From: a virus
Virus record (IMG/VR): IMGVR_UViG_3300027969_000039
Location: 62,001 to 126,000 of that record
Direction: 5' to 3' (one strand)
Length of the DNA stretch: 64,000 bases
Positions 10,841 to 62,057 of the stretch are shown piece by piece; position 1 is the first letter of the stretch; each line of letters begins with the position of its first letter. The position numbers were made by a program, and so were the translations under genes. The notes beneath the pieces were generated by a model. That model did not search any database. It worked only from the letters and a program-made list of their open reading frames with translations, and was not told the DNA's origin.

Positions 10841-12523
10841 ATGAGATTTACCGAATTTATATCTGAGAACGAAAAGCCAGGATTATGGGCAAACATCCAT
10901 GCCAAACGTGACCGAATCAAACATGGATCCGGTGAGCGTATGCGTAAGCCCGGAAGCAAGGGTGCTCCAACAGCAGATGCATTGAGAAAGTCAGCAACTG
11001 ATGAAGCAGCTAATCCAGCACAGCAAGCAGCTATCGCTATCAATATGAAGAAGCATCATCAGAAGCCAAAAGGTGTGGCGGAAAGCGAGTTGGATAAATT
11101 TAAAAAGTATACCAGACCAGTTGTAAAGACTGAACCAAAGATCGAAAGAACAACTAATCCTGCAGGAAGAACAACTGACCATGTTGAATGGAAAGTTACA
11201 AGTCCGACGGGCGAGATTCACAGATATAAATCTAAAAAACAAGCACAAGAGCATTTTGATTCTTTTGGTCAGCAAGGTGTGGCGGAAGGCGACATGTATG
11301 GCGATCAAGAAGTAAGTTGGGAAAAAGGTGGTCGTAGAGCCCCAACTGGTGCATTTAAAAATCCTCATACCAGCGCATTAGGTCGAGCATTATATCGTGA
11401 CCTCAGCAAGCAACCTAAATTAAGCCCGCAACAAGTCCAACGCAACAAAGAGCGTTGGGCACAGCGTCAAGCGGAGCGTGAGCAAGGTGTGGCGGAAGGC
11501 TCTGAAACACCACAACAGCAACAAGTTCGTGCTGCAATTACTAAAGGCATGGAAAAATGGGATAGTAATAATAAGGCTACATATCAGAGTCAACCAACTA
11601 AAACTAATTATATGCCACCCAGCGGTTACGCTAGCGATTCATTGACAGGAGTAGATTCCATTGATCCTGATGGTACCGTGGTCATATCTCTTGGAAATAC
11701 TGGTGCCGAAGCCACAATTAAAAAATTAGCAACATTAGGTGGTATGCCCGGCATTAAAACTAGACAACTGCAATCACCAACCGTTTCATCTAGAGGTGTG
11801 GCGGAAGGCAGAAAGCCATTTCGTGATTTAAAATCTTGGGCTGACCACGCAAAATCACAAGGATTGAAAGTAAGCCCATCTGATCACATTGATTGGACAC
11901 ACGATGCTACTGATAAAGAAGGTAAGGTGCGTGGTAGATTTGTGACTACTAGTGTCCCACAAAATAGTCGAGGATTCATCCACCAGCAAGGTGTGGCGGA
12001 GGGAGAGAGTACTATTCTTTCTCCTGGAACACAAGTTACAGTACCTCACAAGGGAAAAATGGTTTCAGGTAAAATCGTTAGATATGATTCAGGCAAAGGT
12101 ATAGAGTCCCCAGCATATATTGTTGATATCAGCGAATACGAATCACTCATCGTTCCAGTTTCTAGAGTGAAGCAAGACATGGATGAAGGCGAGAATTGGT
12201 CAAAGCACAATAACAAACGTGCAGGCGGGATGAGTAAAAAGAGTGTAGCCAGTTATCGCCGCAGTCATCCTGGAAGCAAGATTCAAACAGCAGTCACAAC
12301 TAAGCCTAGTAAATTAAAGAAGGGCAGTAAGGCAGCAAAACGCCGTGCTAGCTTCTGTGCTAGAATGCGTGGCATGAAGAAACATCGTACTGGTGCGAAA
12401 ACAGCACACGATCCAAACAGCAACATAAATAAAAGTTTGCGTAGATGGCATTGCGAAAGTATTGAAGAACTACACGAATTAGTAATGCTTGCCGAACAAT
12501 TTATTAGGAACAATAAGAAATGA
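10841..12523 (+). CDS. Modular late protein with GVAE repeats; candidate internal-head polyprotein
   Basis: 560 residues. It starts MRFTEFISE, a tag shared with several late proteins here and like the T4 capsid-targeting sequence, which is cut after (L/I)-x-E. GVAE occurs ending at Glu 81, 149, 219, 322 and 387, followed by Gly or Ser, plus MDEG near 450. These divide the chain into six or seven basic mini-domains of 65-100 residues. Module 1 has LWANIHAKRDRIKHGSGERM. The last module (about 485-535) has FCARMRGMKKHRTGAKTAHD, an Arg/Cys domain seen in phage proteins (DUF6321-like). The GVAE codons are nearly identical (GGTGTGGCGGAA). I infer a polyprotein processed by the prohead protease in the capsid. 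The alternative is one long protein with repeated linkers. Confidence 0.75.
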   Translation: MRFTEFISENEKPGLWANIHAKRDRIKHGSGERMRKPGSKGAPTADALRKSATDEAANPAQQAAIAINMKKHHQKPKGVAESELDKFKKYTRPVVKTEPKIERTTNPAGRTTDHVEWKVTSPTGEIHRYKSKKQAQEHFDSFGQQGVAEGDMYGDQEVSWEKGGRRAPTGAFKNPHTSALGRALYRDLSKQPKLSPQQVQRNKERWAQRQAEREQGVAEGSETPQQQQVRAAITKGMEKWDSNNKATYQSQPTKTNYMPPSGYASDSLTGVDSIDPDGTVVISLGNTGAEATIKKLATLGGMPGIKTRQLQSPTVSSRGVAEGRKPFRDLKSWADHAKSQGLKVSPSDHIDWTHDATDKEGKVRGRFVTTSVPQNSRGFIHQQGVAEGESTILSPGTQVTVPHKGKMVSGKIVRYDSGKGIESPAYIVDISEYESLIVPVSRVKQDMDEGENWSKHNNKRAGGMSKKSVASYRRSHPGSKIQTAVTTKPSKLKKGSKAAKRRASFCARMRGMKKHRTGAKTAHDPNSNINKSLRRWHCESIEELHELVMLAEQFIRNNKK

Positions 12524-13098
12524 AAAAACTACTAACGATACTTGCATTGACCTTCTTTGGTTCTGCATTTGCCGGAGAGATTACAGTATGTGATGGACAG
12601 TATGCATTATGTGCTGCTAGTACTTGCAAACCAACTAACAAAACAATTACTGGTAATAACGGCGTAGCATACCCAGAAGTAGAATGCCGTTGCCCAATAC
12701 TTAAAGGTCGTGCTATCGCTGATACATCAGCAGGTAACATGCAAGGTTCATGTGCTGCAACTGATGATAAACATGTTTGGAGTTTGTTTGCTCCTAAACT
12801 TTACTACCCACAAGAGGCTAGCAATTTTAGCAACAAACCAAAAGATAAAAAAGTAACTATACAAAAGTGTGATGCTAGTTTGAATCTAGGTGCAAAGTCT
12901 AGCAATTGCTTTAGTTGGAATTGTACGATAGGTAGTGATGGTATTGCACTATGCTCATGCCCAACTGGTCAAGTACCGGCAAATACTGCATTTTTAACAG
13001 AAGCAGGTCAAGGTAACCCAGAAGCATGTTCACAATACCCAGTAAGTTTACCAATCAAAGCGCAAGATAAGGCTGAAGCTAAGGAAGCAAAAAAATGA
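12520..13098 (+). CDS. Secreted cysteine-rich protein, 192 aa
   Basis: A clear Sec signal peptide, MKKLLTILALTFFGSAFA, is followed by GE. The mature part carries about 11 cysteines in C-x-C and C-x(4-6)-C patterns (ECRCPILKG, CSCPTGQVP), so it is probably a disulfide-stabilised periplasmic protein. The C-terminus is Ala/Lys-rich (KAQDKAEAKEAKK). It overlaps both neighbours by four bases in a late operon. The timing would suit an envelope role at lysis or on the virion. No family recognised. Confidence 0.7.
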   Translation: MKKLLTILALTFFGSAFAGEITVCDGQYALCAASTCKPTNKTITGNNGVAYPEVECRCPILKGRAIADTSAGNMQGSCAATDDKHVWSLFAPKLYYPQEASNFSNKPKDKKVTIQKCDASLNLGAKSSNCFSWNCTIGSDGIALCSCPTGQVPANTAFLTEAGQGNPEACSQYPVSLPIKAQDKAEAKEAKK

Positions 13099-14840
13099 AC
13101 TTTAAAGAATTACACGAAGGCGCAGAGCCAAATATGCCTGGTGCCCCTAGTGGCATCAAGATTATGACACCTCAGCAGTTCGTTGCTAGTGCAGGTGATT
13201 CAAAATCTGATGAAGAGGTATCAGAAGGCGGTAATGCATTCATGCCAGGCATACAAAATACGGCAGAATACAAAGCAGGTTTTGCAACAGGCAAGTTACC
13301 AGTTCCATATCCTGAAGGTACACAACAATATGCTAGCTATTACAAAGGAGTGATTGATAAGTCTACCCCTAATTTAAATAAAGGTACAGCAGGAAATTCG
13401 TTGACTGAATTTGCCCCTAGTGATGACGGTGATGATGGATTTAGTGAAGAAACACTAAAAGGTCTTGCAGCGCAATGGTGGAATGGTGATGAAGATCCTC
13501 GTGTAGAAAAATTATTGATGGCTGCAGGTTGGGAGATTGGTCAAGATGATGGGTATGACAACGGTGGTGTGTTTGTGGTGCGAGCCGGTGATGACAGTGG
13601 TCATAGTTATCTCAGTTGGCCAGCAGAAGAACTAAATCCTAATTTATCAGAAACACATTTAAATAGAATTCGTAGCTTATCTGGATTAGTTGAAGCAACT
13701 AAACTACCAGCACAAACTCGTGATTTGGATAGTCAAGAATTTCAAGACTATATGAAGCGTATCGTTGGTACACCTGATTTAGACAAAGAAGGTAATGTTA
13801 AAGTAGATAAAAAAGGTAACGAAAAGTATACTACTGGCAAGACCAAAGGTGACAAATACAAGATGCCTTACATCCATCGTAGTAGTGTAGTTACATACTT
13901 AAGCCCAGATGGTAAAACATATGATGAAGATGCAGTTAAACAAACATTAGCAATTCGTCCTAAATCATTATTAAAGCAAAATGAAAAGATGAAACATAGC
14001 AATGGTGAGTTTGAACAATTCTTCAATGTTGGATTTGCAGCATTAGTAGGAATTGCATTAGATGAACAAACTAATAAATTAATCATTGTTAATACTTGTC
14101 CAGGCGCTGGCTCTTGTAAAGTAGAGTGCTTTGCTATGAAAGGCGGCAAGATTCAATTCAAGGCTGCATGGCAAAGTGACGGAAGAATACTAACATATCT
14201 ATTAAATGATCCTGATGGTTTCTTCAATCAACTAAGTAGTGAAATATCTGCTGAGGCACAAGCAGCAGCAAAGGGTGATAAGAAATTCCCTAATGGTTGG
14301 CAAACAACAGTTCGCTGGCATGATGCTGGTGACTTCTTTAGTCCAGAATATTTAGACATGGCATTGAAGATGGCTGCTAAACATCCTGATGTTAAGTTCT
14401 ATGCTTATACTAAAATGGCTGGAGCAGCATTAGCGGATAAGCCAGACAACTTCATTATCAATTGGAGTGAAGGTGCTAACACTGCACAAGAGAAACAAAT
14501 CAAAGCACAAGATCCTAAGTTAGATAAAACAAAGAACAGTCGCATCGTTCCAGAGAAACTATTCTATGACTTATTGGCTAAGGACGAGAAGGGCAATTTA
14601 GCAAAGACTCCAGATGGTGCATGGCAACCTGCAGGGCCGCAAGAATTACAACAAATGAAACAGCGTATTGCAACAGAATACGGTATTAGTGCTAACTCTA
14701 TTTTGAGTTATACTGAGTACATGGCTAAGAGAAATTCAATCCCAGCTGGAATGAAGTACAATGTTATTGTTGCACCAGGTGAAGGTGATGTTAGTGCTAA
14801 CGACCCAGGCGTACTAAGTACCTTATTGCTAAGACATTAA
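13095..14840 (+). CDS. Late protein with Cys motif (Gp88-like), possible capsid tag
   Basis: 581 residues. The N-terminus MNFKELHEG loosely fits the capsid-tag pattern (L-H-E, then G). About 115-175 is an acidic mini-domain (FSEETLKGLAAQWWNGDEDP, ...GWEIGQDDGYDNGG). LSGLVEATKLP near 195 could be an internal cleavage site. The C-terminal half carries VNTCPGAGSCKVECFAMKGG, RWHDAGDFFSPEYLDMA and FYAYTKM. This resembles the Gp88 family of phage proteins, whose function is unknown. Convergent overlap with the epimerase gene at 14837. Confidence 0.65.
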   Translation: MNFKELHEGAEPNMPGAPSGIKIMTPQQFVASAGDSKSDEEVSEGGNAFMPGIQNTAEYKAGFATGKLPVPYPEGTQQYASYYKGVIDKSTPNLNKGTAGNSLTEFAPSDDGDDGFSEETLKGLAAQWWNGDEDPRVEKLLMAAGWEIGQDDGYDNGGVFVVRAGDDSGHSYLSWPAEELNPNLSETHLNRIRSLSGLVEATKLPAQTRDLDSQEFQDYMKRIVGTPDLDKEGNVKVDKKGNEKYTTGKTKGDKYKMPYIHRSSVVTYLSPDGKTYDEDAVKQTLAIRPKSLLKQNEKMKHSNGEFEQFFNVGFAALVGIALDEQTNKLIIVNTCPGAGSCKVECFAMKGGKIQFKAAWQSDGRILTYLLNDPDGFFNQLSSEISAEAQAAAKGDKKFPNGWQTTVRWHDAGDFFSPEYLDMALKMAAKHPDVKFYAYTKMAGAALADKPDNFIINWSEGANTAQEKQIKAQDPKLDKTKNSRIVPEKLFYDLLAKDEKGNLAKTPDGAWQPAGPQELQQMKQRIATEYGISANSILSYTEYMAKRNSIPAGMKYNVIVAPGEGDVSANDPGVLSTLLLRH

Positions 14841-34914: not shown

Positions 34915-35355
34915 TTACGCTCGGGCTTTCTTTAGAGTACTACGAATCATCCATTGATGTTTTTCGTGAGCATCTAGCCTCTCAGCGATAAAGTTTGCTA
35001 TACCTTGTTTGTTTTCTTGTGTAGCTGAAGCAAAGCAATGGTTGAGTAAATCAATCATCTTACTGTTATCTTCGAATAATTCAGCAAACATTAATTCAGC
35101 ACGAGGAATTTTAAGTTGGTCTTGAATGATAGATAATTCAGCGTAGCGTGTTAAACTGCCGGGTGCATAACTATCCAATGTACGAATGTATTCAGCAACT
35201 TTATCTACTGCACTATATACTTCTTCATAGAAATTACCAAAGAATTCGTGATATTCAGGGAAGTCAGGTCCTTCAACATTCCAATGAAAGTTCTGTGCTT
35301 TGATGGATAGTGAATTAACGCTAGCCAATAATACTTTTAAATCTTCTGCTAACAT
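34915..35355 (-). CDS. dps: Dps-family ferritin-like DNA-protection protein
   Basis: 146 residues. QNFHWNVEGPDFPEYHEFFG supplies the ferroxidase His and carboxylates, and VDKVAEYIRTLDSYAPGS is the second ligand helix, as in Dps. The long N-terminal DNA-binding tail of E. coli Dps is missing. Known Dps stores iron and shields DNA from peroxide. Coupled by TAATG to the upstream tagged protein (35355-37367), so it is probably expressed late. With superoxide dismutase it suggests protection against oxidative stress. Confidence 0.85.
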   Translation of the reverse strand: MLAEDLKVLLASVNSLSIKAQNFHWNVEGPDFPEYHEFFGNFYEEVYSAVDKVAEYIRTLDSYAPGSLTRYAELSIIQDQLKIPRAELMFAELFEDNSKMIDLLNHCFASATQENKQGIANFIAERLDAHEKHQWMIRSTLKKARA

Positions 35356-37367
35356 TATTGCTGTCCTTGTTGTTGTAGTAACTGTTTTGCCTTTTCTACA
35401 CTAAGCATTGGGCGAGGATGTGATCCATCTATAATACTTTGTAGATATTCTGCACTATAACCACTTGGTGCTTTTGCTGCTGGTTGTTCATCTGATGGTG
35501 CTACTTGAGTAGCAACTGGTTTACCAGTTAAACGATTAATACCAGGATCTTGATCTGGTAGTACACGACCGTGTGCGGCACCGCCTAATGCCATAGCACC
35601 TGCTAATGCTGCACTACCTAATGCGCTTTTCCAGCCTTCATCTACTTGGTGTACACCTGAAAGTATTGCTGATTCTTTTATTGGTACACAGTTATTAACT
35701 CTAGTATCACCCTTCATCTTAGTGCCTTGTTTTTTATAACCAGTCCAGCATTTAGGATCCATACGTTGTTTTTCTTCATCCATAGTTTGATTACCACTAG
35801 CTTGATCAATTCTGCGTTGTAAGTTAGCTTGCTCATCCGGGGTTGGAGCACCTGGATTACCTCCTGACACTCTTAAGTTTGCAGGTTTTGGTTGTTTTGC
35901 ATTACTTGGTGCTGCTGCTTGTTGACTTTGTTGTGCTAATTTACTAAATTCTTTAGCACCATAACTTACTGCCGCAGTTCTATTTCTTCTCTTTAAACTA
36001 TTTAATCCATCTAGTACATCATCTATTGCATCTTTAGCATCATCGACCGTTCTAAAAGATGATGGTCCAGATGATGGTGCGGCTGCTTGCCCTGCACCAC
36101 CTGATGCTGCACCAGCTGATGGTGCGTATCCTCTACCGCCACTTGCTGCTGACATGCCTGAACCTATTCTACTAGCTGGTACATTACTAGTTGTAGCTGC
36201 ATTGCTTGTAGTTTGTGGTGCTGATGCTCTGGTTTCAGGATTGACTTCACCAGTGTGACCCACATGTTGCATAGCTTGATTGGCTCTTGATGCGTCATAA
36301 CCTGTCATTTTACCGCCACCGTATGCATCTTTCATTCCGGCATATGTTCCTTTTACACTACCAATTGCATCACCTACCCCACCCGCCATACGACCCAATA
36401 ATCCTTGTTTGGGTTGTGCCGGCTGAACCGGTAACGGCTTTGCAGCAGGAAGTTTAAAGTTAGTAAATAAATTATTCAATGTCTCCTGTGGTACACCTGC
36501 TTTAATCATAATATCTGCAATTTGATCACTATCGGTTGGCTTATTTGCTTTATTCCATGCTTGCAATAATTTGTCAGCAGTAATCTTTGTTGTTAAGTTT
36601 TGCCCTTTGGTTTTAGCCCAATCTAGTATACCTTCATCAACTTGTTTTTTATGCTCATTAACTATTCTACCAATTAATCTATAAATTTGTGATTCAGATA
36701 GTTCAAATGATTCATTTCTCATTTGTAGACCATTGACTTCACCCGGCTTAGCAGGAACTCTTTTTGGTGCTATCGCTGATAGTGCAGAAGTAGCCGTAGT
36801 TGGTGGTTTAGGTTGTACTCTAGGAAATTTACTAAAATCACCTGTATCTGTTCTTGTACCATCTGATGGACGACCAACAAGTTCTGTACCTTTGTTTAAT
36901 GCAGCAGTTGCAGCAGCTTGTCTTTGTTGTCTTGCTGCTTGTGCAGCTTGTCCTGCAGGAGTAGTTGGTTCTTCTGCTGCTGAAACTGATGGATCTGCAC
37001 TTGTTGATTGTTTTAATCCTGAAGCTGCAACTGGATTAGGAGTGCTAAACATATCTTTAACTTTGCCAATTGCTGTTCTATTGTTGCCGCCACCTACTAA
37101 GTTAGCAGCACCACCTGCTGATTGAATCTCTTGTGCGCTTTTGAAAATTTGTTGAATTTGTTGAGGGTCAACTGCAACTCCTTCTTTAATTTTTTTTGCA
37201 TCATTATCAAATTGTTTTTTAGTAGCAGTATTGATACCTTTAAAACGTTTGTCGCCTTTTTTGAAGTCACCTTCACTATCAGCTTTGCTAGCATTAGCCG
37301 CAGCAGCAGTTTTGTATTTTGCCAACTTGTCGTTAGATAGTTCTGCTAAAAATTCATTGGTTCTCAT
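35355..37367 (-). CDS. Large modular late protein with capsid-type tag, 670 aa
   Basis: The N-terminus MRTNEFLAE|LS matches the tag of T4 internal head proteins (cut after L-x-E). Mini-domains include SEGDFKKGDKRFKG (31-44), a helical unit before VDE246|G, an Ala/Gln/Gly-rich disordered middle (370-520), KCWTGYKKQGTKMKG (539-553), known to me from other phage virion proteins, and VDE577|G, then WKSALGSAALAGAMALGGAA (579-598), a glycine-zipper-like hydrophobic segment. The same hydrophobic module recurs in the protein at 37370-39475. Probably a virion/internal head protein processed at several Glu-Gly sites. Confidence 0.72.
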   Translation of the reverse strand: MRTNEFLAELSNDKLAKYKTAAAANASKADSEGDFKKGDKRFKGINTATKKQFDNDAKKIKEGVAVDPQQIQQIFKSAQEIQSAGGAANLVGGGNNRTAIGKVKDMFSTPNPVAASGLKQSTSADPSVSAAEEPTTPAGQAAQAARQQRQAAATAALNKGTELVGRPSDGTRTDTGDFSKFPRVQPKPPTTATSALSAIAPKRVPAKPGEVNGLQMRNESFELSESQIYRLIGRIVNEHKKQVDEGILDWAKTKGQNLTTKITADKLLQAWNKANKPTDSDQIADIMIKAGVPQETLNNLFTNFKLPAAKPLPVQPAQPKQGLLGRMAGGVGDAIGSVKGTYAGMKDAYGGGKMTGYDASRANQAMQHVGHTGEVNPETRASAPQTTSNAATTSNVPASRIGSGMSAASGGRGYAPSAGAASGGAGQAAAPSSGPSSFRTVDDAKDAIDDVLDGLNSLKRRNRTAAVSYGAKEFSKLAQQSQQAAAPSNAKQPKPANLRVSGGNPGAPTPDEQANLQRRIDQASGNQTMDEEKQRMDPKCWTGYKKQGTKMKGDTRVNNCVPIKESAILSGVHQVDEGWKSALGSAALAGAMALGGAAHGRVLPDQDPGINRLTGKPVATQVAPSDEQPAAKAPSGYSAEYLQSIIDGSHPRPMLSVEKAKQLLQQQGQQ

Positions 37368-37369
37368 AA

Positions 37370-39475
37370 TTATGCTTTCTTATTTTTGATAGATTTTTTG
37401 CTTTCGTATGCTATAGAAGCACCGGGTCTAGAAGAAGATGTATATCCTCTATCTTGTAATCTTGCTGGTTCATCACCAGTAGCTGAATATGGAGTGTTAC
37501 TTAGATTGTTTGAATCATGTTGTCTCTGATATTCTTGGTTAGATGCATCCATTTCATCTTTACTAACTAATGGAGGTTGAACATCTGCACGATGTAATTT
37601 GAAATTATAAAACTTGATACCTTTTGATTTCATAAAATCTTTAACTGCTTCTGAAGCCTGTCCCGGGGAGTTATATTCTGTTCCAAGATTGATATCTTTT
37701 GTAATTGATTTACCATCTACTTGAAAAGTAATTTGAGCAACAATAGGTTGTATTTCATGTGCATGTGCTCCTGCCCCGCCCAATGCAGCAGCACCTGCTA
37801 GTGCAGCACCTGCTAAATTACTTTTCCAACCTTCTTCTACTTTTTTCTTAGCAGCATCCCATGCAGCATCAGTCTTTACATTGTATTCTTTGCCACCAGC
37901 GCCAATGTCAGCAACTCTGCTACCAATATCTTTTTTAGTTTTTACAACAGCTTTATTGTGTTTGTTCACACTCTTTTGCATTAATTTACCGAAGTCTGGA
38001 TTGCGTTTAAGGGCCCGTTCATCTTCTGGACTTCTTGAACTTGCTGCTGCTGTTCTCAAATCACCTAAGTCAAATGCTTCCCTCATTCCTGCTACTTTGC
38101 TACCTTGAGTGTTAGCTGCGGTACCGGTACGGCTGGCTTTCATCTTATCTCCACCGCCACCAATGTGTCTACTACCATAATCGGTCTTGTCTGCCTTGCG
38201 TGGCTTTTTATATGGTAATTGTTGAACATTACCACCTTTACTTAAAAATGCTTGTAATGCAGAATCATCTTCCGCTACACCTTCAGCACTATCAGTAGCT
38301 AATACATCTGCAACTGTGCCAATATGATCGTTTGCTACTGTGATATAACTGTATTCCCATGCATCTAATTGATTACCTTGCTTCAACATCTGATGTATCT
38401 GCTTGCAATTCTTTGCAATATTACGCAACTCTCCCATAGCCATTTGTGGAATCTGTTCTCCACCATCACTATCTTCGTATGCAAGTCCACCGGCGATAAC
38501 ACCAGCACCTTCCGTTACCCCTTGCTCTGCTTGATCCATGTACCATTTAAGAATTTTTAGTAATTCAGTAAGTGATTCTTGCCCTTCAGGATTACAGTAG
38601 TTCTTAGCCATTCTAGCTAAGTCGTACATTGTTCGTAAGTTGCTGGTGCTTACATCACCTTCATTCATACCTATCTTACGCATCACCGCTGGAGAAGCGA
38701 TTTTTTTTATCGCTTCTTTTTTTCCTACTTGTGCTGCCCTATTGCTTATTTTTTGTGATACATCATCATAATGTTTTGCCAATGGATTCATATAGCCGCC
38801 ACCTAATGCATTATGCACCTCAGGCTTCATTGCTTGATTACTTTTGTTTTTAGCTAATTGTGCGGATCTTTGTAACAGATCAGAACTGAGTTCATTGATA
38901 GCATCACTATCAGGTTGCATCTCTTGACTGCTGATTAGATAATCCATCACATTAACCATCATACCTTTTGCTGCGCCAATCTTCTCTGATACCCACTCGG
39001 GGAATTCAGATTGAACGGATAATCTCTTATCTAAATCACTAGCAGCACGGGCGATAGTGTGTAGACTGTTCTTTAATGTGTGACCTTCGTGTTCACCATG
39101 GTCTAAGTCATGCTTAACAAATCCAGTTCTTCTTAGTCTACCTTGACCCGGGATAACGATTAAGTCTTGTTCTGCAATTTCCTCTTCGTTGACTTTTGTC
39201 ATGCTTGCTTTGATTTCAGCTTTTGTTTTTCCATATTTCTTTTGAAATTCAGCAGTAGTTAACTCTGTTAAATCTATTGATAGTTCTTTAACTTTGCTTT
39301 CTGTAATGCTATTAGCGTAAGGCCCTTTCTTTTTAGCCTTCCCTTTCATTACTTGTTGTACAGGTTTCAGTCCCGGAACATTAACATTTTCACGGGTTTG
39401 AGTCATCATAGGCTTTGCTACGGTTGCGACTGACCCTGCTGTGGTTGAATTTTCTACTATTTGCTTAAATCTCAT
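37370..39475 (-). CDS. Large modular late protein with capsid-type tag, 701 aa
   Basis: N-terminus MRFKQIVE|NS fits the tag pattern (I-V-E). A helical module at 155-190 has PEWVSEKIGAAKGMMVNVMD. GVTE322|G and GVAE402|D are the same kind of linker as in the protein at 10841. VEE548|G is followed by WKSNLAGAALAGAAALGGAG (550-569), a near copy of the module in the protein at 35355. The last part is a small beta-rich domain (ITFQVDGKSITKDINLGTEY). Late promoter GATAAATA at 39499-39506 heads this gene and probably the genes down to the nuclease. Confidence 0.72.
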   Translation of the reverse strand: MRFKQIVENSTTAGSVATVAKPMMTQTRENVNVPGLKPVQQVMKGKAKKKGPYANSITESKVKELSIDLTELTTAEFQKKYGKTKAEIKASMTKVNEEEIAEQDLIVIPGQGRLRRTGFVKHDLDHGEHEGHTLKNSLHTIARAASDLDKRLSVQSEFPEWVSEKIGAAKGMMVNVMDYLISSQEMQPDSDAINELSSDLLQRSAQLAKNKSNQAMKPEVHNALGGGYMNPLAKHYDDVSQKISNRAAQVGKKEAIKKIASPAVMRKIGMNEGDVSTSNLRTMYDLARMAKNYCNPEGQESLTELLKILKWYMDQAEQGVTEGAGVIAGGLAYEDSDGGEQIPQMAMGELRNIAKNCKQIHQMLKQGNQLDAWEYSYITVANDHIGTVADVLATDSAEGVAEDDSALQAFLSKGGNVQQLPYKKPRKADKTDYGSRHIGGGGDKMKASRTGTAANTQGSKVAGMREAFDLGDLRTAAASSRSPEDERALKRNPDFGKLMQKSVNKHNKAVVKTKKDIGSRVADIGAGGKEYNVKTDAAWDAAKKKVEEGWKSNLAGAALAGAAALGGAGAHAHEIQPIVAQITFQVDGKSITKDINLGTEYNSPGQASEAVKDFMKSKGIKFYNFKLHRADVQPPLVSKDEMDASNQEYQRQHDSNNLSNTPYSATGDEPARLQDRGYTSSSRPGASIAYESKKSIKNKKA

Positions 39476-39528: not shown

Positions 39529-40935
39529 TTAGATTTTGCCGTTTGCTTTAGCTGTTGGGGGTATTCCAGCACGACTGGTGTTCCAGTAGAATGCTTTTGC
39601 GTTCTTTTTTATACTGTCAGGGTGTACATCTACAGTTAGTGCTGTCTTGAATCGCGGGTCATTCTTTTGTTTTTCGCTTGGAATATATCCACTTGCTTCA
39701 CTTATTCCACCACGATATTGATTATCTTTAACGCCAGCATAAGGACTTACTGGTGGAGTTTTTTCTGCTGCAAATTGCATGGTGTTGTATTCTTCCGCCA
39801 CACCTTTTACTTTTGGATCTAAATCTTTCAAGCTATTCACATCACCTTGCTTGCGCCACTTTGACCACATTTTTTGTCCAGCGGTAGTTTGTGTTTCAGA
39901 AGGCAATACATTGACACCTAACATGCGAATCAAAGCATACATATTTGCGGCTATACCTTGTCCTTGATATTTAGGATCGACTCTGGTCTTCATGCTTGTT
40001 ACACCTTGCACTTCACCTGTATATAGATTTCGTGCTTTGGCAAATTGTGCATCTCCAATTGGATTGAGATTTTTTTTATCATATGCTTTGATAGATAAGA
40101 AATCATTTTTCTTCCCTGCATTTGTAACATGATAAAGTATTCCGTTTATGTCTTGTTTGAAATCTAATCCTGGTTTCCATAACTCATTGTTGAATTGTTC
40201 TTCTTCATCTATGTTCTGATACATAGTCTCAAACGATAACTTCTCACTATGTAACTTGTCTCTTAAATCATATAATTTTGTAATATATCCTTGACTACGC
40301 AACATCTTATATGCTAAATTTTCAGGACCAAACTCACCACCTTTATCTAATCCTGCTTGTCTATATCGTTTGATCGTGTCTATTATATGTTTTACTTTAC
40401 TATATTTTCTTGACTGTAGTGCTATCTCTATCAAACCTAATAACTTTTCATACTTGCTTTTAGTAGAAGTTTGGTCAAAATCACTTCTACGCTTAGTGGG
40501 TATTCTTATCCACTGATCATTCATTACACTGTATTCACCTAAACTTACAACAGGTTGTCTACTGTCTTGTACATATAATTCTACTGGAATTTTATGAATT
40601 GTTATATCATGTGTATCATTGTATATTGTTTTCTTTGCTGTAAATAACTCTTTATATACTTCATTGGTAGGTAAATTACCCATGTCTACTAATATATGTA
40701 AATCTAAATCACTGTGCTTTGTGTAGCTAAATGCAGCATTACTACCTGAGATTGTTATGTCTTTTACATCTAAATCATGTACACCTAATTCTTCTAAAAA
40801 ATCTGCTGCTATCAGCATAAGCTGGTCTCTAACATCTGGTCGCAATTTAGTTTCATTCCATAACTTAGGATTAAGTTTATCGTGGAATGTTACCGCATCA
40901 CTTAGTTTAAAGCTATTAAGTTCTTTTTGATTCAT
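39529..40935 (-). CDS. Nucleotidyltransferase-GNAT fusion-like protein with GVAE linker, 468 aa
   Basis: The N-terminal domain (about 40-130) has ITISGSNAAFSYTKHSDLDL, then HILVDM, a pol-beta nucleotidyltransferase start (G-S...D-x-D). The middle (about 255-365) has GEVQGVTSMKTRVDPKYQGQ and GIAANMYALIRM, a GNAT acetyl-CoA-binding segment. VKGVAE|EY follows, encoded by the same GGTGTGGCGGAA word as in the gene at 10841. The C-terminal module (KTALTVDVHPDSIKKNAKAF) is typical of phage proteins. Coupled to the 21-residue gene at 40932-40997 with a late promoter, so probably a virion protein. Confidence 0.7.
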   Translation of the reverse strand: MNQKELNSFKLSDAVTFHDKLNPKLWNETKLRPDVRDQLMLIAADFLEELGVHDLDVKDITISGSNAAFSYTKHSDLDLHILVDMGNLPTNEVYKELFTAKKTIYNDTHDITIHKIPVELYVQDSRQPVVSLGEYSVMNDQWIRIPTKRRSDFDQTSTKSKYEKLLGLIEIALQSRKYSKVKHIIDTIKRYRQAGLDKGGEFGPENLAYKMLRSQGYITKLYDLRDKLHSEKLSFETMYQNIDEEEQFNNELWKPGLDFKQDINGILYHVTNAGKKNDFLSIKAYDKKNLNPIGDAQFAKARNLYTGEVQGVTSMKTRVDPKYQGQGIAANMYALIRMLGVNVLPSETQTTAGQKMWSKWRKQGDVNSLKDLDPKVKGVAEEYNTMQFAAEKTPPVSPYAGVKDNQYRGGISEASGYIPSEKQKNDPRFKTALTVDVHPDSIKKNAKAFYWNTSRAGIPPTAKANGKI

Positions 40936-61488: not shown

Positions 61489-62057
61489 GTTTTATGGATG
61501 AATGGTCCGTAAATCTTTTCAAGTTCTTGGATAGTTTGAGCAACAGTACTATCTTCATGCTTTACTGCAATGCCACCTGCACTACTCCATGCATCTAAAT
61601 ATTTGCCATAATCATCTACTAGTACATTTGGGATGCCACCATTTAATGCATGTTTGTACTTTGCACCAGTGAATATTGCACTACCACTAGTTCCCGGGTT
61701 ATATTGGTCTAGCCAATCTTTTTTAGCTTCTATGCTAGCCTTCGCATACGGACCGCGCAACGGAGCAGACAATACGGTGAACGGGATTTTATTATCATTT
61801 AGCCACATTACAATACGCATACCACCTGTTAGTGGCTTTAAGTCTCTAAAAAACTGATAAACTTGTTCCGGGCTACTTGTTGCTAATGCTTGTATATCTT
61901 CTTCTCGTCTTGGAATCTCTTTGTAACTAGAAACCCCATGCTTTCCAGCCCAGGCGCCAAAGAAATCTGCTTGAACTCCATCCATATCTAGGTATAGATG
62001 TGGCATCTTTGCTTCTGGTTCAGACTCAATTTCTTCTAATAATTCTCGTATACGCAT
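61485..62057 (-). CDS. HAD-family 5'-nucleotidase-like phosphatase with capsid-type tag
   Basis: LYLDMDGVQADFFGAWAGKH has the catalytic D-x-D-G-V (Asp24, Asp26). The middle has the second HAD motif near VLSAPLRG and a final VLVDDYGKYLDAW with acidic pair. This matches the NT5C/deoxynucleotidase-type cap arrangement. The N-terminus MRIRELLEE|IES is the tag pattern. ATG 62057 (second of two) lies five bases after the late octamer. May alter nucleotide pools or remove phosphates inside the head or after injection. Confidence 0.8.
   Translation of the reverse strand: MRIRELLEEIESEPEAKMPHLYLDMDGVQADFFGAWAGKHGVSSYKEIPRREEDIQALATSSPEQVYQFFRDLKPLTGGMRIVMWLNDNKIPFTVLSAPLRGPYAKASIEAKKDWLDQYNPGTSGSAIFTGAKYKHALNGGIPNVLVDDYGKYLDAWSSAGGIAVKHEDSTVAQTIQELEKIYGPFIHKT

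Follow-up and report, generated by a model that had tools for sequence, protein, structure and literature searches.

Why does one phage gene repeat the same short coding sequence five times, and what does that sequence do? The question is raised by the open reading frame at positions 10841–12523 of a 64,000-nucleotide stretch of viral DNA (the window; positions 62,001 to 126,000 of IMG/VR record IMGVR_UViG_3300027969_000039). A sequence-only reading had proposed that this gene encodes an internal-head polyprotein that is cut at GVAE sites. We examined the protein, the DNA of its repeats, the exchange of the segments between them and the head genes of the same phage.

Architecture of the candidate polyprotein gene

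The open reading frame contains five GVAE motifs that divide its product into small modules with no relationship to one another.

10841–12523, + strand: polyprotein open reading frame, 560 aa
10841–10867, + strand: N-terminus MRFTEFISE, capsid-targeting-like and possibly cut after Glu9 (I-S-E), from pattern comparison with the 10-residue T4 capsid-targeting sequence (CTS) (PMC9026906)
10868–11083, + strand: module 1, aa 10–81, LWANIHAKR unit (phrog_16028)
11072–11083, + strand: linker 1, GGTGTGGCGGAA, GVAE then Ser
11084–11287, + strand: module 2, aa 82–149, best-folded part of the structure model (pLDDT about 90)
11270–11289, + strand: linker 2, CAGCAAGGTGTGGCGGAAGG, QQGVAEG
11288–11497, + strand: module 3, aa 150–219
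11480–11499, + strand: linker 3, GAGCAAGGTGTGGCGGAAGG, EQGVAEG
11498–11806, + strand: module 4, aa 220–322
11481–11808, + strand: cassette 99.1% identical to loci L133 and L120, with unrelated flanks and both breakpoints in linkers
11795–11808, + strand: linker 4, GGTGTGGCGGAAGG, GVAEG
11807–12001, + strand: module 5, aa 323–387
11984–12003, + strand: linker 5, CAGCAAGGTGTGGCGGAGGG, QQGVAEG
12002–12187, + strand: module 6a, aa 388–449, beta-rich in the model
12176–12190, + strand: degenerate sixth boundary, DMDE then G, near which several homologous segments start
12188–12520, + strand: module 6b, aa 450–560, DUF6321

The GVAE motifs end at residues 81, 149, 219, 322 and 387 and are followed by S, G, G, G and G, so that cleavage behind them would create the N-termini SELDK, GDMYG, GSETP, GRKPF and GESTI. 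When the protein was shuffled 20,000 times, two GVAE motifs appeared in a single shuffle and more than two in none. At the DNA level, GGTGTGGCGGAAGG occurs within the gene as three exact copies and two copies with one mismatch, and allowing up to three mismatches gave 10 matches across the whole window, compared with 1.5 expected. The near-identity of the five motifs, the Gly or Ser behind each, the MRFTEFISE start and the five predicted N-termini are therefore as the sequence-only reading described them. Its "65–100-residue basic modules" fit the segments that precede the five sites (81, 68, 70, 103 and 65 aa, pI 8.2–10.2) but not the C-terminal part, which is 173 aa long and holds the further boundary-like site at residue 449.

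The LWANIHAKR and FCARMRGM units, which that reading had named as separate phage units, are both real: residues 11–52 match phrog_16028 (50 aa), and residues 460–536 match DUF6321 (PF19846), which is the only domain recognised in the protein. In cultured Prochlorococcus phages, small proteins combine pieces of both of these ends. A domain search of the window protein matched no peptidase family, which indicates no embedded peptidase for domain release. The structure model has low overall confidence (mean pLDDT 61.9), and a fold search with it against PDB and BFVD returned no match at E≤0.001.

The linker is an in-frame DNA repeat with frozen codons

The 20-mer CARCAAGGTGTGGCGGARGG is present in at least 120 IMG/VR stretches. 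A bacterial and archaeal genome collection of 257 billion bases gave three matches, which is about the estimated chance level, and among 50,697 cultured phage records the 20-mer was not found, with only short words matching. The linker also occurs in phages whose capsid protein has only 36% identity to that of the window phage (G009/G010); its absence from 13 of 20 records in one follow-up set is uninformative because those contigs are incomplete. All 133 exact copies of the 20-mer, a few of which are repeated views of one site, are read in the GVAE frame within long open reading frames, and unique copies of a 12-mer behave identically, with 250 of 250 inside long open reading frames in the GVAE frame and none intergenic.

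The codons of the linker are also fixed. In copies other than those matched by the search, GGT, GTG and GCG account for 97%, 86% and 93% of the respective linker codons, compared with 45%, 24% and 10% elsewhere in the same proteins. Between diverged homologous modules, the linker Gly, Val and Ala codons were identical in 45 of 48 cases versus 72 of 138 fourfold module codons, and a set found by module sequence, in which the motif was not used, gave 210 of 222 linker codons versus 552 of 876; both comparisons involve related sequences, whose counts are not independent. Overall, synonymous identity is about 94% for linker codons and 52–63% for the flanking modules. Linkers were counted by pattern search, modules were clustered with the linker removed from the sequences, and most loci were collected by motif, the motif-free set being small. 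Across the hundreds of copies that we compared, the synonymous positions of the linker are frozen.

Such freezing, together with cassettes that move at the linker, would be expected if the linker were primarily a DNA element, such as a site-specific recombinase target or a structured or regulatory site, that codes for protein only incidentally. We regard this explanation as very unlikely. A DNA element does not account for the single frame of 250 out of 250 copies, and variants at the protein level retain [VM]xE despite changes in their DNA. Furthermore, the 303-kb record, which is possibly incomplete, gave no match to PF00589 or PF00239, and hence no dedicated site-specific recombinase of the tyrosine or serine type was found in it. 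A G-quadruplex was also considered as the cause of the frozen codons and is not favoured: the natural codons, ranking 86 of 128, are not favourable for such a structure, and its G-runs include neither the conserved T of GGT nor the upstream CAA.

Cassettes change neighbours at the linkers

The clearest case of exchange in the window is module 4 with its two linkers (11481–11808, 328 bp), in which the 99.1% identity to L133 and L120 gives way to unrelated DNA at both ends within linkers. The capsid protein of the L133 phage is 73% identical to that of the window phage. In L019, the orthologous gene has kept the start and the last module while its middle modules have been replaced. For 26 shuffled pairs, identity is high up to linker position +12 and falls to background level beyond it. 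We compared 41 islands of near-identical DNA with unrelated DNA on either side: both ends lie in linkers for 16 (2.4% expected), at least one end does for 31, and the remaining 10 end outside strict linkers on both sides. One module that was found without using the motif, RVDQLPTRG..., occurs at 17 loci, where it has about 14 different neighbours on its left and 12 on its right. These comparisons identify the linkers as recombination joints at which cassettes have been swapped between distantly related phages. The sequence-only reading had recognised the repeated GVAE and had missed what we consider its strongest feature, namely the freezing of its DNA and the recombination of cassettes between phages.

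All of the recombinant junctions come from metagenome contigs, which leaves room for the idea that the cassette combinations are assembly chimeras formed at a repeated sequence. We assign this idea a negligible chance. Assembly k-mers are usually longer than 20 bp, and a 20-bp repeat falls below them; contigs from different IMG datasets carry the entire 560-aa architecture unchanged; and many of the shared modules have diverged since the exchange, unlike what would be expected of a chimera.

The simplest reading is that the linker stays uniform through recombination at its own homologous sequence: the phage has a RecA/UvsX-type protein, its record yielded neither an integrase nor a resolvase, and a quadruplex does not account for the conserved positions. 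A point against the explanation that we prefer is that 20 bp of homology is short for ordinary recombination.

Predicted cleavage at the linkers

This giant T4-like phage has genes for an S77 prohead protease (E=4e-29), a T4-type portal and a Gp23 capsid protein. Among 20 linker-bearing or relative records, gp23-type capsid and S77 genes co-occur in 12, and every contig with the capsid gene also has S77. The T4 protease gp21 cleaves after L/I-x-E (PMC9026906). Between the protease and capsid genes of the window phage lies a gene in the scaffold position, whose 366-aa product contains 15 [VILM]xE[GAS] sites, compared with 2.0 expected, with V, L, I and M at P3 and one site that reads VAEG; a control motif with polar P3 is absent. 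Comparison of 79 related capsid proteins shows an invariant L-x-E at the propeptide position, followed by S, N, T or A. When the linker is set beside the phage's own candidate protease sites, as the sequence-only reading had suggested, the scaffold-position protein offers the same motif, while the capsid propeptide differs in having L at P3.

The boundaries of modules away from GVAE point in the same direction. Homologous segments provided 604 ends; at the ends that lie away from GVAE, [VILM]xE[GASN] is enriched (0.257 versus 0.084), and control motifs in which D, K or Q replaces E show no enrichment at the same ends. The motif-free module has hydrophobic-x-Glu at 13 of its 14 distinct left boundaries (GVAEG, EVGEG, DMAEA, SVAEA, GVEEG, GMTEG and DVAEA among them); the exceptions are one left boundary that reads GVAKG and one right boundary without a linker. 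In addition, all five linkers of the window protein lie in segments with pLDDT <50, which are probably disordered.

In five polyproteins (L041, L090, L138, L036 and L063), a Tat signal (RRGFLKG) lies in the middle of the chain or follows the CTS, and its RR comes 2–7 residues after the Glu of a linker or linker-like site; four of these signals score above the TIGR01409 cut-off and one just below. Internal Tat signals would become N-terminal only after cleavage, which supports cleavage at these sites. Hydrophobic segments in general are weakly enriched behind [VILM]xE sites (0.30 versus 0.21), and only the Tat-type signals are prominent. Separately, modules that start with GWKD or GWKS right behind a linker or linker-like site continue with a hydrophobic, Ala/Gly-rich stretch that resembles a signal peptide and in some cases ends in AQAAD or AHA; these were seen in window genes 35355–37367 and 37370–39475 (both − strand) and in L030, L023, L089 and L144.

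Only about 10 N-terminal residues are required for capsid targeting in T4 (PMC9026906). A loose CTS pattern, which MRFTEFISE fits, was present in 46 of 90 linker proteins versus 172 of 818 other open reading frames, with start codons chosen mechanically. By this start and by the parallel with T4, we infer that the products of the polyprotein may be packaged and injected.

A different explanation is that these are uncut multidomain chains, similar to polyvalent proteins, in which the linker serves as a flexible hinge and is identical only because it is a recombination joint. We consider this improbable, while recognising that the structure model places the linkers in probably flexible segments, that long multidomain chains are known among phage polyvalent proteins (PMC5512222) and that the evidence for cleavage is all indirect. 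A hinge would not require a conserved Glu, yet the degenerate boundaries keep hydrophobic-x-Glu and not its D, K or Q counterparts. The phage's own scaffold-position protein has this motif in abundance, and the mid-chain Tat signals right behind linkers are sensible only after cleavage. Taken together, the sequences strongly suggest that the prohead protease cuts the polyprotein at its linkers. The idea of an internal-head polyprotein cut at GVAE is thus partly supported and agreed with every indirect test that bears on it (S77, scaffold sites, propeptide L-x-E, probable disorder, Tat signals and boundaries), with the qualification that the linker has Val at P3, where the capsid propeptide has L and T4 has L or I.

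Other linker-type genes and their predicted cargo

Four further genes of the window have related features.

13095–14840, + strand: neighbouring gene with CTS-like start MNFKELHEG, a GP88 domain and a V-S-E-G site
35355–37367, − strand: gene with CTS-like start MRTNEFLAE and [VILM]xE[GAS] sites
37370–39475, − strand: gene with CTS-like start MRFKQIVEN and GVAE and GVTEG linkers
39529–40935, − strand: gene whose product has a GVAE linker close to the C-terminus

By eye, the product of the last gene has a nucleotidyltransferase-like part and then a GNAT-like part before its GVAE; it has no Pfam match at E≤0.01.

Across linker proteins, the recognised domains are DUF6321, GP88, GNAT, HD, DnaJ, LysM, cytidine deaminase, M48 and an RNA-polymerase-binding domain of the SutA type. 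The SutA domain, which was matched by two linker proteins, is plausible cargo for host takeover, and the L041 polyprotein matches Peptidase_M48 and DUF6321 in addition to its Tat signal. As predicted from their domains, the cargo of the other linker proteins would fit early host takeover, and it proves nothing for the window protein. In the L148 phage, which has just 36% capsid-protein identity, the linker protein (1961–2989) sits in the head-gene neighbourhood between the portal-position and prohead protease genes, with one small open reading frame before the protease.

Proposed mechanism and its significance

We think it likely that the gene encodes a head-targeted effector polyprotein, cut by the prohead protease, whose cut-site DNA doubles as a joint for in-frame cassette exchange. 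The T4-type capsid-targeting N-terminus would carry the chain into the prohead, where the S77 (gp21-type) protease would cleave after GVAE and the degenerate [VILM]-x-E sites and so free several small, mostly basic proteins. These proteins would reach the next host with the DNA and could serve there as early effectors. About 20 bp of DNA (AGCAAGGTGTGGCGGAAGGC) that encode the predicted cut site also form the joint for swaps between genes and between distantly related phages, and any exchange through it would leave an open frame and a cuttable junction.

On balance, we also lean towards a broader picture of a combinatorial gene system, in which one 20-bp coding sequence is both recombination joint and cut site, distantly related giant phages share a circulating pool of effector cassettes and each deliver a different mixture, and some of the freed modules with Tat signals are exported by the new host's own machinery. 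If true, this would explain how large T4-like phages rapidly vary their injected early proteins without ever losing the open frame or the cut site. The linker could furthermore serve as a DNA tag for the bulk mining of effector modules from metagenomes.

Comparison with known systems

By capsid protein, PA5oct-like Pseudomonas phages and Vibrio phage 2.275.O come closest among cultured phages, and the head regions of PA5oct and 2.275.O, 41 kb in length, show no repeated-linker protein. A tblastn search of cultured phages with the L148 polyprotein gave no match. Synechococcus phage S-SSM7 encodes a 994-aa protein, SSSM7_236 (L247:1233–4217), that has a DUF6321-like unit among many basic segments and may be a cultured analogue that lacks the GVAE linker. 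Searches of the open PMC literature found no phage polyprotein cut by a prohead protease and a single, unrelated paper with the string "GVAEG". The earlier statement that no such polyprotein was known in T4-like phages holds for these papers, none of which was found to describe a phage polyprotein whose modules are exchanged at the site of cleavage.

The internal head proteins of T4 (IPI–III and Alt; PMC9026906) share with the window phage T4-type head genes, an S77 protease, a CTS-like N-terminus, a hydrophobic-x-Glu cut, which is predicted here, and small basic products. In T4, each protein has its own gene and loses one propeptide, whereas the chain described here has at least five modules, a repeated linker frozen at the DNA level and mostly Val at P3. 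The polyvalent proteins of phages and conjugative elements likewise hold many effector-like domains in one polypeptide, which presumably enters the host together with the DNA, and the authors who described them draw an analogy with polyproteins (PMC5512222). Release by embedded peptidases was suggested for some of those proteins, whereas we propose a separate prohead protease, and the modules here are mostly 50–120 aa and joined by a standard DNA linker. The giant phages phiKZ and SPN3US (PMC5694885) have a gp21-like protease that cuts after x-x-Glu and ejected proteins in giant heads; in the partial text of that source, the cuts remove propeptides, and it describes no repeated linker or cassette exchange.

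Temperate phages become mosaic when Rad52-like recombinases swap small gene fragments between diverged phages through short homologies (PMC3945230), which resembles the exchange at linkers, except that those homologies are ordinary conserved sequence and here one standard linker recurs at many joints. Integron-like site-specific cassette systems have a dedicated recombinase gene, unlike the window phage as far as its record extends. T4-type phages carry mobile regulatory cassettes (promoter stem-loops) between genes, and short repeats mark the exchangeable units, as they do here. Those cassettes are intergenic and consist of a promoter and a stem-loop, whereas the repeats described here lie within genes, in frame, and code for a predicted cut site.
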